From: a candidate division KSB1 bacterium
GTDB taxonomy: Bacteria > Electryoneota > RPQS01
NCBI GenBank assembly: GCA_016214895.1
Contig: JACRMR010000008.1
Span: forward strand, 248,001 to 312,000
Direction: 5' to 3'
Length of the DNA: 64,000 bases
Position 1 is the stretch's first letter, and every line of letters starts with the position of its first letter. Positions 26,468 to 31,893 of the stretch are shown here, one piece after another. The notes below the pieces were generated by a model that searched no databases, had not been told where the DNA came from, and was given only the letters and a program-made list of their open reading frames with translations. Position numbers and translations under genes: made by a program.

Positions 26468-27991
26468 CTATTTGCGGAGGGCGGCAAGGCGACCGCTTCG
26501 CGTCCAGTTTGAACCGTTGTTGCCGGATGCAGCGCCCGGCGCGGCCAGTTGAACGTGGGGCGCGCGTTCGGCATTGAGCGCGACGTGCGCGATGGCCGCC
26601 GCCAGCACGGCCTCGTCGTCAAGGGCTTCATTCAATTCGGCGCGATAGCTGTCGAGGAACTCATGGTCGGCCGAATGCGTCGAGAAGTCGGCCTTCGCAA
26701 AGCGCTCCGTGGCCAGGATGTGGCGACAGAAGGAGATATTGGTTCGCACACCAACCACTTCGTAGGCTTCCAGGGCTCGCAGCATCCGCTCAATGGCCGC
26801 GGGCCGCGACTCGGCGCGCGCGATCAACTTGGAGATCATCGGATCGTAGAAACGCGAGACTTCGTCGCCTTCGCGCATCCCCGAGTCTTCGCGAATTCCG
26901 GGGCCGTTCGGACCGCGCAGGCGCGTGAGCTTTCCGGTTGAGGGCAGAAATCCGTTGGCCACATCTTCGGCATAGATTCGGACCTCAATGGCGTGGCCGC
27001 GACGAGTGATCTGTTCTTGGGTGAAGGGCAGTTTCTCCCCGGCGGCCACCATGAGTTGCAGCCGGACCAGATCGTAACCGGTGACCTCCTCCGTAACCGG
27101 GTGCTCCACTTGCAGGCGCGTATTCATCTCGAGGAAGTAGAACCTGCCGTCCGCATCGAGCAAGGTCTCGATGGTCCCCGCGTTCACATATCCGCACGCT
27201 TTGGCCGCCGCCACCGCGGTCGCGCCCATTTTCGCGCGCAGTTCCGGCGTGACGACCGCCGACGGAGATTCTTCGATGATCTTCTGATGACGACGCTGCA
27301 ACGTACACTCGCGTTCGCCGAGATAGACCACGTTGCCGTGCTGATCGGCAAACACTTGAATCTCGATGTGACGCGGATTCTTCAGGTACTTCTCAACGTA
27401 AACCGAGCCGTCGGCAAACGCCGCGAGCGCTTCGCGCTGCGCCGCCTCGTAGGCGCTCTTCATGTCGTCGGCCCGCTCCACGACGCGCATGCCCTTGCCA
27501 CCGCCGCCGGAGACCGCTTTCAACAACACGGGATAGCCGACGCGATTGGCAAACGCTTTCGCGTCATCGGCGGAGGCCACGGGACCGTCGCTTCCGGGCA
27601 CGACCGGCACACCGGCCTTGGTCATCAGCTCCCGCGCTCCGGTTTTGGATCCCATGGAATCGATCGCACGGGGCGGCGGCCCGACCCAAATCAGCCCGGC
27701 ATCCGTGACCCGCTGCGCGAAGTCGGCTTTTTCGGAGTGGAATCCGTAGCCCGGATGAATCGCGTCTGCTCCGGATTTCCCGGCGGCTTCGAGAATCTTC
27801 TCCTGACGCAGATAGCTCTCGGCTGCCGGCGAGGCGCCGATGTCGTGGGCTTCGTCAACGGACTGCACGTGCAAGGCGCTGCGATCCGCATCGGAGTAAA
27901 TGCCGACGGTCGCGATTCCCATCTCGCGCGCCGTGCGAGCGATTCGAACGGCGATTTCGCCGCGATTTGCAATCAGCAGTTTCTTAATCAT
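26468..27991 (-). CDS. biotin carboxylase subunit (acetyl/propionyl-CoA carboxylase alpha)
   Basis: ATP-dependent carboxylation of the biotin on BCCP. The 507 residues start LIANRGEIAVRIARTAREMG and include the ATP-grasp loop SGGGGKGMRVVE (about 165-176), ESPSAV, and EMNTRLQVEHPVTEEVTG (about 289-306). It is longer than E. coli AccC (449) by a C-terminal extension (about 450-507) that ends in a low-complexity Ala/Gly/Asn stretch. The ATG shares one base with the helicase stop (TGATG). A carboxyltransferase (propionyl-CoA carboxylase beta) is not in the window. Confidence 0.95.
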   Translation of the reverse strand: MIKKLLIANRGEIAVRIARTAREMGIATVGIYSDADRSALHVQSVDEAHDIGASPAAESYLRQEKILEAAGKSGADAIHPGYGFHSEKADFAQRVTDAGLIWVGPPPRAIDSMGSKTGARELMTKAGVPVVPGSDGPVASADDAKAFANRVGYPVLLKAVSGGGGKGMRVVERADDMKSAYEAAQREALAAFADGSVYVEKYLKNPRHIEIQVFADQHGNVVYLGERECTLQRRHQKIIEESPSAVVTPELRAKMGATAVAAAKACGYVNAGTIETLLDADGRFYFLEMNTRLQVEHPVTEEVTGYDLVRLQLMVAAGEKLPFTQEQITRRGHAIEVRIYAEDVANGFLPSTGKLTRLRGPNGPGIREDSGMREGDEVSRFYDPMISKLIARAESRPAAIERMLRALEAYEVVGVRTNISFCRHILATERFAKADFSTHSADHEFLDSYRAELNEALDDEAVLAAAIAHVALNAERAPHVQLAAPGAASGNNGSNWTRSGRLAALRK

Positions 27992-30909
27992 CAGGAGACG
28001 GACTCCACGGAATCCATGAAGTTCCGCGGATCAAGCCGCAGCGGAATTCTCACCGTTCCAAAGTCCTTTCTCTCATAGAGCACATAGCCGTGTCCGAGCG
28101 CGAACAACAGCAGGTCGCGGGTCAATTCGACATCGTGGATGCAGTATTCCGTGACGAGATCGAGGCGCCCTTCCTTGAACCATTCGAGCGATTGCAGACC
28201 GTCGGCGGTCTTTTGCGCGCCCAATGTGGCACGCGTGAGCGTATCAAGTTTGAGGCGGTTCCCCAGCGAATCCTGCACTTCCAGCAGCAGGTCGAGCGTC
28301 GGCAAGGCCTGCAAGTCCGCGAAGGTGTAACCCCGCAGCACTTCGTAATCGAACCGTTTGAGGTTATATCCCACCACCAGATCGGCGGACTGCAAGTGCG
28401 CGATCAGCGCCTCCACCTCCGACTCGCCGTAAGCGGACATCCGGTTGGTTTTGCTATCCCACACCACACCGATGGCCAACCGCATGAACCGGATGGCATT
28501 CCAACCGCCGACGTCGTCGGCGGACAACTGAGTTTCGAGATCGAACACCAGCACACGCTTGTCGGCGGGCAGGTTGACAGCCTGCCACGGAACTTCTGCG
28601 GTTTCGCTCACGGGTTGGGCCACGCGGACGGCCGCGGCTTCCGGCAGCACGGTTCGCTCCCGGTCCAACAACACGTCAAGCACCCGCACCGCTGCGCGCT
28701 TGTCGAGTGGCTTGTTTCCGGAACCGCACTTCGGGGACTGAATGCACGTCGGGCACCCGGCTTCACAGGAGCAGTTCAGGATCAGCTCCCGCGTGCGAAC
28801 CAGCAAGTCCGCAAGGATCGAAAAGGTAAAGTTCGCGATGCCCGCGCCGCCCGGATAGCCATCGTAGAAGAACACGGCACCTTCCGGCAACTGCGGGTGC
28901 TTCATGAAACTGATGCCGCCGACATCGTTGCGGTCACAGAGTGCGAACAACGGAATCAGCGAGATCGCCGCGTGCTCGCAAGCATGAATCCCACCCATGA
29001 AATGCAGTTCTTCGGCAGCGAGTATGCTCTCCAGATCGGCCGGCAGCTGCAGCCAGAGGCTGTCGGTGACATAACTCTGCGGCGGCAGGTCGAGCGGCTC
29101 GACGGAAAGCAATTCCTGTGTGTAGATACGGCGGCGCTCGAAGCTGTGGTAGGTTTCAGTGACCTTGACCTTGCCGCGATGGGCGACGAAACCGTGCACG
29201 ACCTTCTGTTCGCGGTCGTCGAGGATTTCCGTCTGCTTGTCGGAGCGCGCCATCGTGTAGATCGTGCTCGTCGTGGGTCTCACGACCACCCGTCTGCGCT
29301 CGATGTCTAGTTCCTCGACCAAATACGGCTCGCCGCGATGCAGATAGACGGCGCCGGTATGGCATTCCCGAAAGACCGCGCCGCCGCTGATATCTCCAAC
29401 GGGTCGCTTCAATCCGTTTTGCATGATGTCAAACGTGCCGCCGATGTTGCGCAGATTGACCGCGGCGTGCGGCCGGGGACCGCCCGGAAACCACTGCTTT
29501 CCGGAGGCGCTTCGCACCAGGGCGCCTTCGCGTTCGAGATCGGCAAGCACGTCTTGGTAGCGCGTGACATCAATGAACGGGTCGTCGGCCATCAGCGGAA
29601 TCTCCGCGGCCGCCGCGGGCAGATGCGCCCGCAGGATTTCTTCATTGGCATCGTTGACCAGCGCGGCTTCAAACGGTCGATGGAGGAATTGCTCCGGCCG
29701 CGAAACCAGATACTGATCGAGTGCATCATACCCGGCGATCATGATCACCGCGCTGTGCTCATCCCGCCTCCCAACTCGACCCGCGCGCTGCCAGAAGGAC
29801 ATCATGCTGCCGGGATAACCGGCGAGAATACAAAGGTCGAGTCCGCCGATGTCGATGCCCAGTTCGAGCGCGCTGGTGGAGATGACGCCCGTGAGCTCGC
29901 CCGAGGCGAGTCTGCGCTCGATGTCGCGGCGTTCCTCGCTCAGAAAACCGGCTCGATAAGAGCTAATCCGCGGCGCCAGGTCCGGCCGGGTGTCCAGCAC
30001 GATCCGGTGCACCACTTCCGTTTGCACGCGGGCTTTCGAGAAGACGAGCGTTTTCAACCCGGCGTCAATGGCTTTGACGAAGAGCTTCGCGACCAGACTC
30101 GTTGTGGAGCTTTGCGTGCTCAGCATCACGAAATCCTTCGCGGCCAGCGGCGCGCCGGATTCCGACACCACGGTGAAGTCGCGATGCATTAGCGATTCGG
30201 CGAGTGCACGCGGATTCGCGATCGTCGCCGAGAGGCAGATGAACTGCGGCTTTACTCGATGATAGCTAAGCAGCCGTTGCAGCCGCGCCAGCACTTGCAG
30301 GATATGCGAGCCGAACACGCCGCGGTAGGTGTGCAGTTCATCGATGACCACGTACCGCAGGCGCTTGAGCAGTTGCTCCCAGCCGGTGTGATAGGCGAGC
30401 AACCCCTGATGGAGCATGTCCGGATTCGTGATCAGGAAGTTCGGCGGACTCCGCTTGATCTTCGCGCGCTTTGCCGCGGGCGTGTCGCCATCGTAGATCT
30501 CAACCGAGAATGGCAGCGTACCGGCCAACGCCGCTTGCCAATGCACGAGTTTGCCACGCTGGTCCTGCTCGAGCGCTTTGAGCGGATAGATCAAGAGCGC
30601 GCTCGTCGCGGGCTCGGCCAGCATCGCTTCCAGAATCGGCAGCGAAAAGGTCAGCGTCTTGCCGCTCGCCGTCGGCGTCACCACGACCACGGATTCTCCG
30701 CGCCGGACCGCTTCCACCGCCGCCACCTGATGCGTGAAGAGCCGGCGGATGCCGTCGCGCTGTAGCGCGTTCAGAATCGCCTGCGGAAGCGGCGGATCGA
30801 GTTCGGCAAAGGCGGCGTCGCGCTCCGGCAGCGCTTCGCGATAGCGAAACGACCGCGCGATTTCCGCATCGTCCTCGATGGCGGCGAGAAAGTTGTCAAT
30901 CCGCGACAT
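27991..30909 (-). CDS. fused DEAD/DEAH helicase (MrfA-like, DUF1998) and DEDD exonuclease-like domain (MrfB-like)
   Basis: A 972-residue two-part protein. Residues 1 to about 760 form a superfamily 2 helicase: motif I TPTASGKT (78-85), DELH (190-193), QRAGRVGRRD, then the DUF1998 region with a four-cysteine cluster (NCSCEAGCPTCIQSPKCG). This is the layout of MrfA (YprA), which with the nuclease MrfB repairs mitomycin C lesions in Bacillus. Residues about 785-930 form an RNase H-like domain with VFDLETQ (D790, E792), GYNLKRFDY (D854) and YCIHD (Y922, D926), the acidic set of DEDD exonucleases and of MrfB. The start abuts the epimerase stop with no gap. Confidence 0.9.
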   Translation of the reverse strand: MSRIDNFLAAIEDDAEIARSFRYREALPERDAAFAELDPPLPQAILNALQRDGIRRLFTHQVAAVEAVRRGESVVVVTPTASGKTLTFSLPILEAMLAEPATSALLIYPLKALEQDQRGKLVHWQAALAGTLPFSVEIYDGDTPAAKRAKIKRSPPNFLITNPDMLHQGLLAYHTGWEQLLKRLRYVVIDELHTYRGVFGSHILQVLARLQRLLSYHRVKPQFICLSATIANPRALAESLMHRDFTVVSESGAPLAAKDFVMLSTQSSTTSLVAKLFVKAIDAGLKTLVFSKARVQTEVVHRIVLDTRPDLAPRISSYRAGFLSEERRDIERRLASGELTGVISTSALELGIDIGGLDLCILAGYPGSMMSFWQRAGRVGRRDEHSAVIMIAGYDALDQYLVSRPEQFLHRPFEAALVNDANEEILRAHLPAAAAEIPLMADDPFIDVTRYQDVLADLEREGALVRSASGKQWFPGGPRPHAAVNLRNIGGTFDIMQNGLKRPVGDISGGAVFRECHTGAVYLHRGEPYLVEELDIERRRVVVRPTTSTIYTMARSDKQTEILDDREQKVVHGFVAHRGKVKVTETYHSFERRRIYTQELLSVEPLDLPPQSYVTDSLWLQLPADLESILAAEELHFMGGIHACEHAAISLIPLFALCDRNDVGGISFMKHPQLPEGAVFFYDGYPGGAGIANFTFSILADLLVRTRELILNCSCEAGCPTCIQSPKCGSGNKPLDKRAAVRVLDVLLDRERTVLPEAAAVRVAQPVSETAEVPWQAVNLPADKRVLVFDLETQLSADDVGGWNAIRFMRLAIGVVWDSKTNRMSAYGESEVEALIAHLQSADLVVGYNLKRFDYEVLRGYTFADLQALPTLDLLLEVQDSLGNRLKLDTLTRATLGAQKTADGLQSLEWFKEGRLDLVTEYCIHDVELTRDLLLFALGHGYVLYERKDFGTVRIPLRLDPRNFMDSVESVS

Positions 30910-31893
30910 TCAGATGAGATCGTCAGCGACGTAACTCTCGTACGTCTCGCGCAACAGCGCATCCAATTCGTATTCGCAGCGAAATCCCCAGGCGCGCTCA
31001 ATCGCGGAGGCATCGCAGACCCAGCCATCCGCCAGTATCTCGCGCAGTTTGTCCCGACTCAATAGTGCCGGTTTTCCGGTGAGTCTGCATACAAGCTCGG
31101 AGATTGGCGCCGCGGCATGAATCACAGGACGCGGAATCGGCAACGCCCGAACCCGGCGACCAGCGATCCGGGCCAGCCGGAAACTCACGTCGCTCCACGT
31201 CACAGAATCGCGCGCGGCGGCAAAGTACACGGCCTTCAACCCGCGATCGGATTCTCCCGCGAGCAGTAGCGCTCGCGCCAGATCTTTCACATAGATCAAG
31301 CTGTAACGTTGCGAGCCGGAGCCCCACCGCGGATAAAGCCCGAAGGCCTTGATCGCGCGAAACAGCGGAACAAATTGCAGGTCACGCGGTCCGATCACCG
31401 CGGACGGGCGGAGGATCACCCACTCCATTTCACCTGCATTCGCCACTATCTCGCGCTCGCCTTCCAGCTTGCTTCGGCCATAGGCCGAGATCGGGGTCGG
31501 CGGCTCGTCTTCTCGCTTCGCACCCGCGCCGGTCGAAGGCCCGGCCGCAGCTTGCGAAGAGCAGAGCACGAAGCGTTTACACCCGGCGTCCCGCGCGACT
31601 TTCGTGAATTCGGCCACACCCCGCACGTTCACGCGGAACAAATCAACTTCATGAACGGCTTTCGTCAAGCCCGCGCAGTGAACGACGGTCTCGCATTCCG
31701 CGACCGCGGCGCGCAGTGATTCCACATTGGCGACGTCCCCTGTGGCGAACTCAACCGGCAAAGCTCGCAACCAACTCAGCCGATTCGGGTCGCGCACCAG
31801 TGCGCGCACGATCCACCCCGCCCGCAAGTAGGACTCAATCGTGTGACTGCCGACGAAACCCGTGCCGCCGGTAATCAGCGCGCGCCGCCTCAC
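30910..31893 (-). CDS. NAD-dependent epimerase/dehydratase family protein (extended SDR)
   Basis: A 327-residue extended short-chain dehydrogenase. The Rossmann signature is TGGTGFVG (about 8-15), the catalytic Ser lies in LCSSQAAAGPS and the Tyr-Lys pair in AYGRSKLEGE. The C-terminal part resembles dihydroflavonol-reductase or 3-beta-hydroxysteroid-dehydrogenase-like members more than sugar-nucleotide epimerases (no typical sugar-nucleotide binding loop seen). The GTG start overlaps the thioesterase stop (GTGA) and the stop abuts the helicase start. Substrate unknown. Confidence 0.88.
   Translation of the reverse strand: MRRRALITGGTGFVGSHTIESYLRAGWIVRALVRDPNRLSWLRALPVEFATGDVANVESLRAAVAECETVVHCAGLTKAVHEVDLFRVNVRGVAEFTKVARDAGCKRFVLCSSQAAAGPSTGAGAKREDEPPTPISAYGRSKLEGEREIVANAGEMEWVILRPSAVIGPRDLQFVPLFRAIKAFGLYPRWGSGSQRYSLIYVKDLARALLLAGESDRGLKAVYFAAARDSVTWSDVSFRLARIAGRRVRALPIPRPVIHAAAPISELVCRLTGKPALLSRDKLREILADGWVCDASAIERAWGFRCEYELDALLRETYESYVADDLI

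Follow-up and report, generated by a model that had tools for sequence, protein, structure and literature searches.

One 972-residue protein encoded in the window, i.e. the whole 64,000-nucleotide stretch of DNA analysed here, joins a MrfA/YprA-type helicase to a predicted DEDDy exonuclease whose family differs from that of MrfB. The motifs of both parts are intact, the fusion is widely distributed, and it is absent from the MrfB-carrying genomes of two sampled phyla. We judge it probable, with some reserve, that the protein is a single-chain DNA repair enzyme in which 3'-5' unwinding is coupled to DEDDy-type 3'-5' digestion and which does the job of MrfA plus MrfB with an independently recruited nuclease.

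The open reading frame starts with ATG and is read without an internal stop from 30909 to 27991 (Table 1). The first-pass annotation had given positions 27991-30909 correctly and without a strand; the frame lies on the minus strand, and the plus-strand frame over the same positions is interrupted by stops. Its description of a single helicase-exonuclease fusion is confirmed by the uninterrupted frame, the Pfam domains and the structural model, and the domain boundary that it placed near residue 770 agrees with a linker of low model confidence. The TGA of the epimerase gene directly abuts the ATG of the fusion gene, whose own stop is overlapped by one base by the ATG of the biotin carboxylase gene (TGATG). 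Genes for an accA-type carboxyltransferase, a 4HBT thioesterase and the NAD epimerase precede the fusion gene in this minus-strand run, and genes for biotin carboxylase, biotin carrier, methylmalonyl-CoA mutase, biotin ligase and pantothenate kinase follow it. Between 22722 and 33303 on the minus strand a repair-type gene is apparently translationally coupled inside an acyl-CoA carboxylase/methylmalonyl-CoA mutase operon, an arrangement kept in relatives.

Table 1. Features of the fusion gene and its immediate neighbours (positions in the window)
Feature	Position	Strand	Basis or remark
ORF of the helicase-exonuclease protein	27991..30909	minus	972 aa, stop codon included
NAD-dependent epimerase, upstream operon neighbour	30910..31893	minus	
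Biotin carboxylase, downstream operon neighbour	26468..27991	minus	
MrfA/YprA-type SF2 helicase, residues 1-750	28660..30909	minus	PDB 6znp, Pfam, motifs, Foldseek
MZB / DUF1998 (MrfA Zn-binding, PF09369), residues 645-723	28741..28977	minus	E 6.9e-20
Four-Cys cluster C713, C715, C719, C722 (CxCx3Cx2C)	28744..28773	minus	invariant in 43/43 aligned fused proteins
Flexible linker, residues about 753-774	28588..28653	minus	pLDDT < 50
Predicted DEDDy 3'-5' exonuclease-type domain, residues about 784-962	28024..28560	minus	model, fold match, PF13482
Catalytic motif I, D790-x-E792	28534..28542	minus	kept in 84/84 fused relatives
Catalytic D854	28348..28350	minus	kept in 84/84 fused relatives
Motif III, Y922-x3-D926 (general base Tyr, last Asp)	28132..28146	minus	Y 83/84, D 84/84

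The N-terminal part belongs to the MrfA/YprA helicase family, so that its earlier description as an MrfA-like DEAD/DEAH-DUF1998 helicase with a four-Cys cluster is borne out. Pfam finds DEAD (residues 60-232, E 3.7e-29) and Helicase_C (residues 281-382, E 1.2e-13) in addition to PF09369. The helicase motifs TPTASGKT (78), DELH (190), SATI (227) and QRAGRVGRR (374) are intact, their core residues being invariant across a 43-sequence alignment of fused proteins. Residues 30-725 are matched to residues 30-732 of Bacillus subtilis MrfA/YprA (6znp) at E 1.3e-143, and 6znp is also the top Foldseek match (E 2.8e-69, 34% identity to MrfA over the helicase) of the AlphaFold2 model of the whole protein, which has a mean pLDDT of 88.6. 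The curated cut-off of TIGR03817 (DECH_helic) is not reached (675.7 vs 874.1 bits). According to the available text of PMC12458937, the polarity is 3'-5' both for MrfA as a helicase and for MrfB as an exonuclease, and complementation as published seems to be specific to the species; by its likeness to MrfA, 3'-5' DNA helicase activity is predicted for the window protein.

By its catalytic acids and Tyr and by its modelled fold, the C-terminal domain is classed as a DEDDy exonuclease of the type found in family B DNA polymerase (PolB) proofreading domains. A Pfam search with PF09369 and PF13482, suggested at the outset, returns the former clearly; PF13482 (RNase_H_2) matches residues 812-927 of the whole protein just below its cut-off of 22 bits (21.3 bits, E 2.8e-4) and rises above it (25.9 bits) when the exonuclease part is searched by itself. 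All 65 relatives' domains match PF13482 at E<=0.01, and 47 of the 65 match DNA_pol_A_exo1. Modelled alone from 65 sequences, the domain reaches a pLDDT of 93.0, and its best solved fold matches are family B DNA polymerase exonuclease domains together with T7 polymerase. The VIA-align alignment to PolB exonuclease domains, P. abyssi Pol B in editing mode among them, gives a Z of 15.3 and an rmsd of 2.8-4.6 over 155-165 residues at about 16% identity; Foldseek returns 5mdn at E 1e-6.

The residues D790, E792, D854 and D926, pointed out by the first-pass annotation, are all present. In a joint domain alignment the four acids are conserved in every one of a non-redundant set of 84 fused relatives, and likewise in 20/20 standalone domains, 20/20 MrfB sequences and 6/6 members of a third PF13482 group. 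Since they are invariant among the 84 fused relatives, their presence in the window is not due to chance, and the loss of catalytic acids that had been named as a possible refutation is not seen. H925, adjoining the last Asp, is variable among fused relatives. An alignment of the catalytic residues with MrfB had been proposed as a check; besides the four shared acids, it reveals a position previously overlooked, Y922, which is Tyr in 83/84 fused, 20/20 standalone and 6/6 third-group sequences and His in 20/20 MrfB sequences. Due to this Tyr, the window domain is assigned to the DEDDy type. A single fused relative of the 84 (L083) has His at the general-base position (EHCRRDVE). The window domain itself stands in the joint alignment as L001_AMBIG, its duplicate L002 having been removed; 24 AMBIG rows, mostly truncated loci, were counted apart and kept out of the tree, and five partial domains were dropped. 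The domain is predicted to have 3'-5' exonuclease activity.

In the mechanism that we propose, the MrfA-type helicase would translocate 3'-5' along one strand, and the proofreading-type DEDDy exonuclease, tethered by the linker, would digest the freed 3' end trailing the motor. Such coupled digestion would make unwinding irreversible and leave a gap for resynthesis. We infer the activity of the fusion protein, its polarity, its action on DNA rather than RNA and its role in repair. An RNA-processing enzyme, in which helicase and DEDDy exonuclease act on RNA or short oligonucleotides, would be in keeping with weak matches of the domain profile to the NrnC/diDNase group of oligonucleotide exonucleases (E 0.036-1) and with the DNA_pol_A_exo1 matches; we hold it to be unlikely, as a DNA helicase solved bound to DNA (6znp) is matched along the length of the helicase part and DNA polymerase proofreading domains lead the fold matches.

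The label "MrfB-like", given to the nuclease on first inspection, stands for the superfamily and not for the family. We conclude that the fused nuclease shares with MrfB the DEDD/DnaQ superfamily and the broad Pfam family PF13482, which also includes non-MrfB proteins, and that it belongs to a different family, because it has Tyr for His, lacks TPR, is split from MrfB in the domain tree and has a profile that misses the MrfB structure 8un9. Likewise, the unrelated nuclease family once named as grounds for refutation is found only in so far as the family differs; the superfamily is the same. MrfB is described in the available text of PMC11194089 as a DEDDh enzyme (H258/D262, the His lying four residues before the last Asp) with a TPR domain. 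As MrfB reference we used a 419-aa homologue from a genome of the window's phylum (L117; 8un9 at E 6e-33) and its relatives. A profile from 14 MrfB homologues recovers 8un9 at E 2.7e-53, and 8un9 is absent among the 19 PDB matches (E<=1) of the fused-domain profile; among these 19, the DEDD exonucleases are weak matches throughout, namely a diDNase ancestor, T7 polymerase, NrnC and polymerase delta. Nor does 8un9 appear among the 50 fold matches listed for the domain, an absence that does not speak for a different fold. Up to 9/14 MrfB homologues are matched by TPR families, and Pfam finds no TPR in the window protein. In a tree of 88 domains, which took every second fused row (42/84) and represents the window domain by close relatives, fused and standalone exonucleases (62 rows) are split from MrfB plus the third PF13482 group (26 rows) with support 100/99, long branches being flagged.

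The third PF13482 family (L112-L116, L118) comprises DEDDy proteins of about 285 aa with the motif YNxxD, encoded by six genomes of the phylum and not by the window's genome. An apparent 1214-aa MrfA-MrfB fusion in another genome (G077) was rejected: its helicase comes to an end in a different frame (L180:1366), MrfB being read afterwards in frame 1, so that the arrangement is an operon with overlapping frames.

Could the window protein nevertheless be a literal MrfA-MrfB fusion, its MrfB shortened by loss of TPR and its His changed to Tyr? The shared PF13482 would suit this, as would a profile-profile comparison (hhalign) of the fused domain with MrfB, which aligns the four acids at a probability of 45.9% (73.2% against the third PF13482 group), and the 2025 preprint PMC12458937, in its available text, labels nucleases fused to this helicase family MrfB/YprB homologs. 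We give this origin little chance, considering the well-supported, if long-branched, tree split, the nearly uniform Tyr against the uniform His, the absence of 8un9 from the profile's PDB matches and the position of mrfAB-operon helicases outside the fused-helicase clade (99).

A sample of 198 genomes from the phylum to which Desulfatitalea alkaliphila (G049), a named isolate with a fused ORF (L069), belongs includes 57 with the exonuclease family and 21 with MrfB, at cut-offs chosen after seeing the score gap (E<=4e-45 for the exonuclease, with 10 more genomes at 1.6e-6 or weaker; E<=7.5e-17 for MrfB, with 24 more at 1e-8 or weaker). No genome has both, where 6.0 would be expected (hypergeometric 5e-4, ignoring the shared ancestry of the genomes). 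Several weak MrfB matches in fusion genomes (e.g. G067, G109, G141, G191, G252; frames of 250-374 aa) were left uncounted as presumably other PF13482 proteins. All 57 exonuclease genomes also have the helicase. In 18 of the 21 MrfB genomes the helicase is encoded separately, its frame being 761-844 aa long; the other three (G115, G179, G207) have none at the cut-off, and six genomes of the sample have the helicase only. Helicase and MrfB adjoin in 10 of the 11 MrfB genomes whose region was extracted and lie apart in G187. Among 188 genomes of a second phylum (that of G052, Myxococcota by title), the fusion family occurs in 15 (with a frame of 1008-1354 aa in 14 genomes and of 324 aa in the other) and MrfB in 70, again without a shared genome (5.6 expected; probability 6e-4, likewise ignoring shared ancestry). 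This mutual exclusion in the two sampled phyla fits the fusion as a substitute for MrfAB; it could also reflect common descent of the sampled genomes instead of function. Both the fusion and a MrfB homologue are present in one 56% complete genome of the window's phylum (G031), where the latter (L117:1201-2457) lies between unrelated genes with no helicase adjoining. The window's own genome has no match to this L117-type MrfB, and its one PF13482 match is the fused protein itself.

The helicase-exonuclease fusion is not rare. Of 39 genomes from the window's phylum, 30 encode it as a single frame, which in two of them (G022, G031) is cut by a contig end within the exonuclease; helicase and exonuclease pieces lie on different contigs in G030 and G035, and G013 has a helicase alone (754 aa). 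A scan of genome contigs elsewhere confirmed 133 stretches, 80 of which were kept: in 68 the frame already contains helicase sequence upstream of the exonuclease, 10 consist of a short standalone ORF and two run off the contig. The fused records, most of them MAGs, carry depositor-assigned titles that name Calditrichaeota, KSB1, Desulfobacterales, Myxococcota, Methylomirabilota, Nitrospinia, Scalindua, Acidobacteria, Glassbacteria and CSSED10-310. In the phylum of G045, titled Verrucomicrobiota, 31 genomes out of 194 sampled give a strong match to the exonuclease, always as a standalone frame of 187-304 aa. The standalone exonucleases L184-L193 and the Verrucomicrobiota-titled set measure about 187-227 aa in most cases. 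The MrfA-type helicase is absent from 8/10 genomes carrying the standalone form.

The helicase family also branches, according to the available text of PMC12458937, into defence systems with C-terminal nucleases, and the window protein might accordingly be an anti-phage effector akin to such YprA-family helicases (Druantia, ARMADA). PADLOC helicase models do match it, with E down to 9.5e-61, but they match mainly the generic helicase core, and none of the 25 listed has its best stretch reaching the exonuclease. Moreover, the fusion gene is near-universal in the phylum, unlike a mobile defence gene, and it lies within a carboxylase/mutase operon conserved in relatives. Its genomic setting is housekeeping: no defence gene is found among the ten neighbours tested, and the operon neighbours recur across related genomes, their conservation outside the window's phylum amounting to two stray matches (L045, L064). 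We therefore regard a defence function as quite improbable. A plasmid search of 72,556 records yielded no match to the exonuclease domain and distant helicase matches only. One of the latter (L245, Haloarcula litorea plasmid NZ_CP119781.1) has for neighbours a protein annotated as ribonuclease H-like, a gene of the ThiF family and another helicase, a grouping that looks like a defence-type cluster.

An inactive nuclease domain, binding or regulatory only as stated for TALON RNase H folds, is very improbable given the four acids kept in all 84 fused and all 20 standalone domains, even though MrfB was crystallised in an apparently inactive state (PMC11194089, available text).

Concerning the history of the single-chain repair enzyme that we favour, a helicase tree (SH-aLRT only) of the window and every third fused helicase (33/99) places the fused helicases in one clade (99), with five unfused ones nested within (L229-L232, L238). 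Ten of 11 helicases from MrfB genomes group together outside this clade (95), and the placement of L228 is unsure. The tree topology is thus compatible with one old fusion. Standalone exonucleases fall within the fused set of the domain tree, with five label changes, two of them doubtful: L059, labelled SOLO, has an ORF that runs off the contig, and L101 comes from a genome (G044) in which the helicase sits on a different contig and ends where that contig starts. In one genome of the window's own taxonomic order (G026; L246, C14:192000-196500), all that is left between epimerase and biotin carboxylase is residues 1-61 of the helicase together with the exonuclease part, a remnant which indicates that the helicase core was deleted in place; the exonuclease frame there has an early stop. 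A standalone exonuclease adjoins a similar epimerase gene in G001. These cases and the Verrucomicrobiota-titled set imply that the nuclease is retained without the helicase, which argues against a function solely in coupled form; as it exists alone without a MrfA-type helicase, the exonuclease should have a function of its own. Taken together, we lean slightly towards a history in which MrfA-type helicases gained an exonuclease on two or more occasions, drawing on different DEDD lineages, once as the separate DEDDh enzyme MrfB and once as the fused, proofreading-like DEDDy domain, the two solutions standing in for one another from genome to genome and the fusion having been repeatedly split with the nuclease kept.

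If our reading is true, bacteria that lack MrfB possess, in a single chain and with a different nuclease, an equivalent of the mitomycin C repair pair, and the cooperation of MrfA and MrfB becomes testable in one polypeptide of fixed stoichiometry. It would also caution against moving the MrfB label and DEDDh chemistry onto fused proteins. Whether the fusion had been catalogued was left as a question by the first-pass annotation; in outline it has, since the preprint PMC12458937 mentions YprA helicases "fused to MrfB/YprB homologs", the same architecture class in the DNA-repair branch of the family. The available text describes that fused nuclease without residue-level or family analysis and so does not decide its identity with the window domain; neither this text nor the open-licence literature searched deals with Tyr versus His at the general-base position, with a nuclease family apart from MrfB or with the exclusion between fusion and MrfB.

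Among known systems, MrfA (YprA) of Bacillus subtilis (6znp/6znq/6zns) shares the DEAD core and the MZB with its four Cys. MrfA is a stand-alone protein, whereas the window protein continues with linker and nuclease, and the mrfAB-operon helicases fall outside the fused clade. MrfB (YprB, 8un9) has in common with the window domain the DEDD superfamily, PF13482 and a MrfA-type helicase partner; it is a DEDDh enzyme with a C-terminal TPR, encoded by a separate gene, whereas the window domain is of predicted DEDDy type, without TPR, fused and in a separate clade. The best structural matches are the PolB proofreading exonuclease domains (4flt/4flu, 5mdn), which are of DEDDy type (PMC11194089, available text). 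In contrast to these, the window domain is attached to a helicase and has no polymerase domain. Staphylococcus aureus DinG with its N-terminal exonuclease (SaDinG) likewise combines a helicase and a 3'-5' exonuclease in one chain, but its helicase is of the DinG-type 5'-3' kind and its N-terminal nuclease of DEDDh type, unlike the window protein. In TALON YprA the RNase H fold is inactivated, whereas the window domain keeps its acids.
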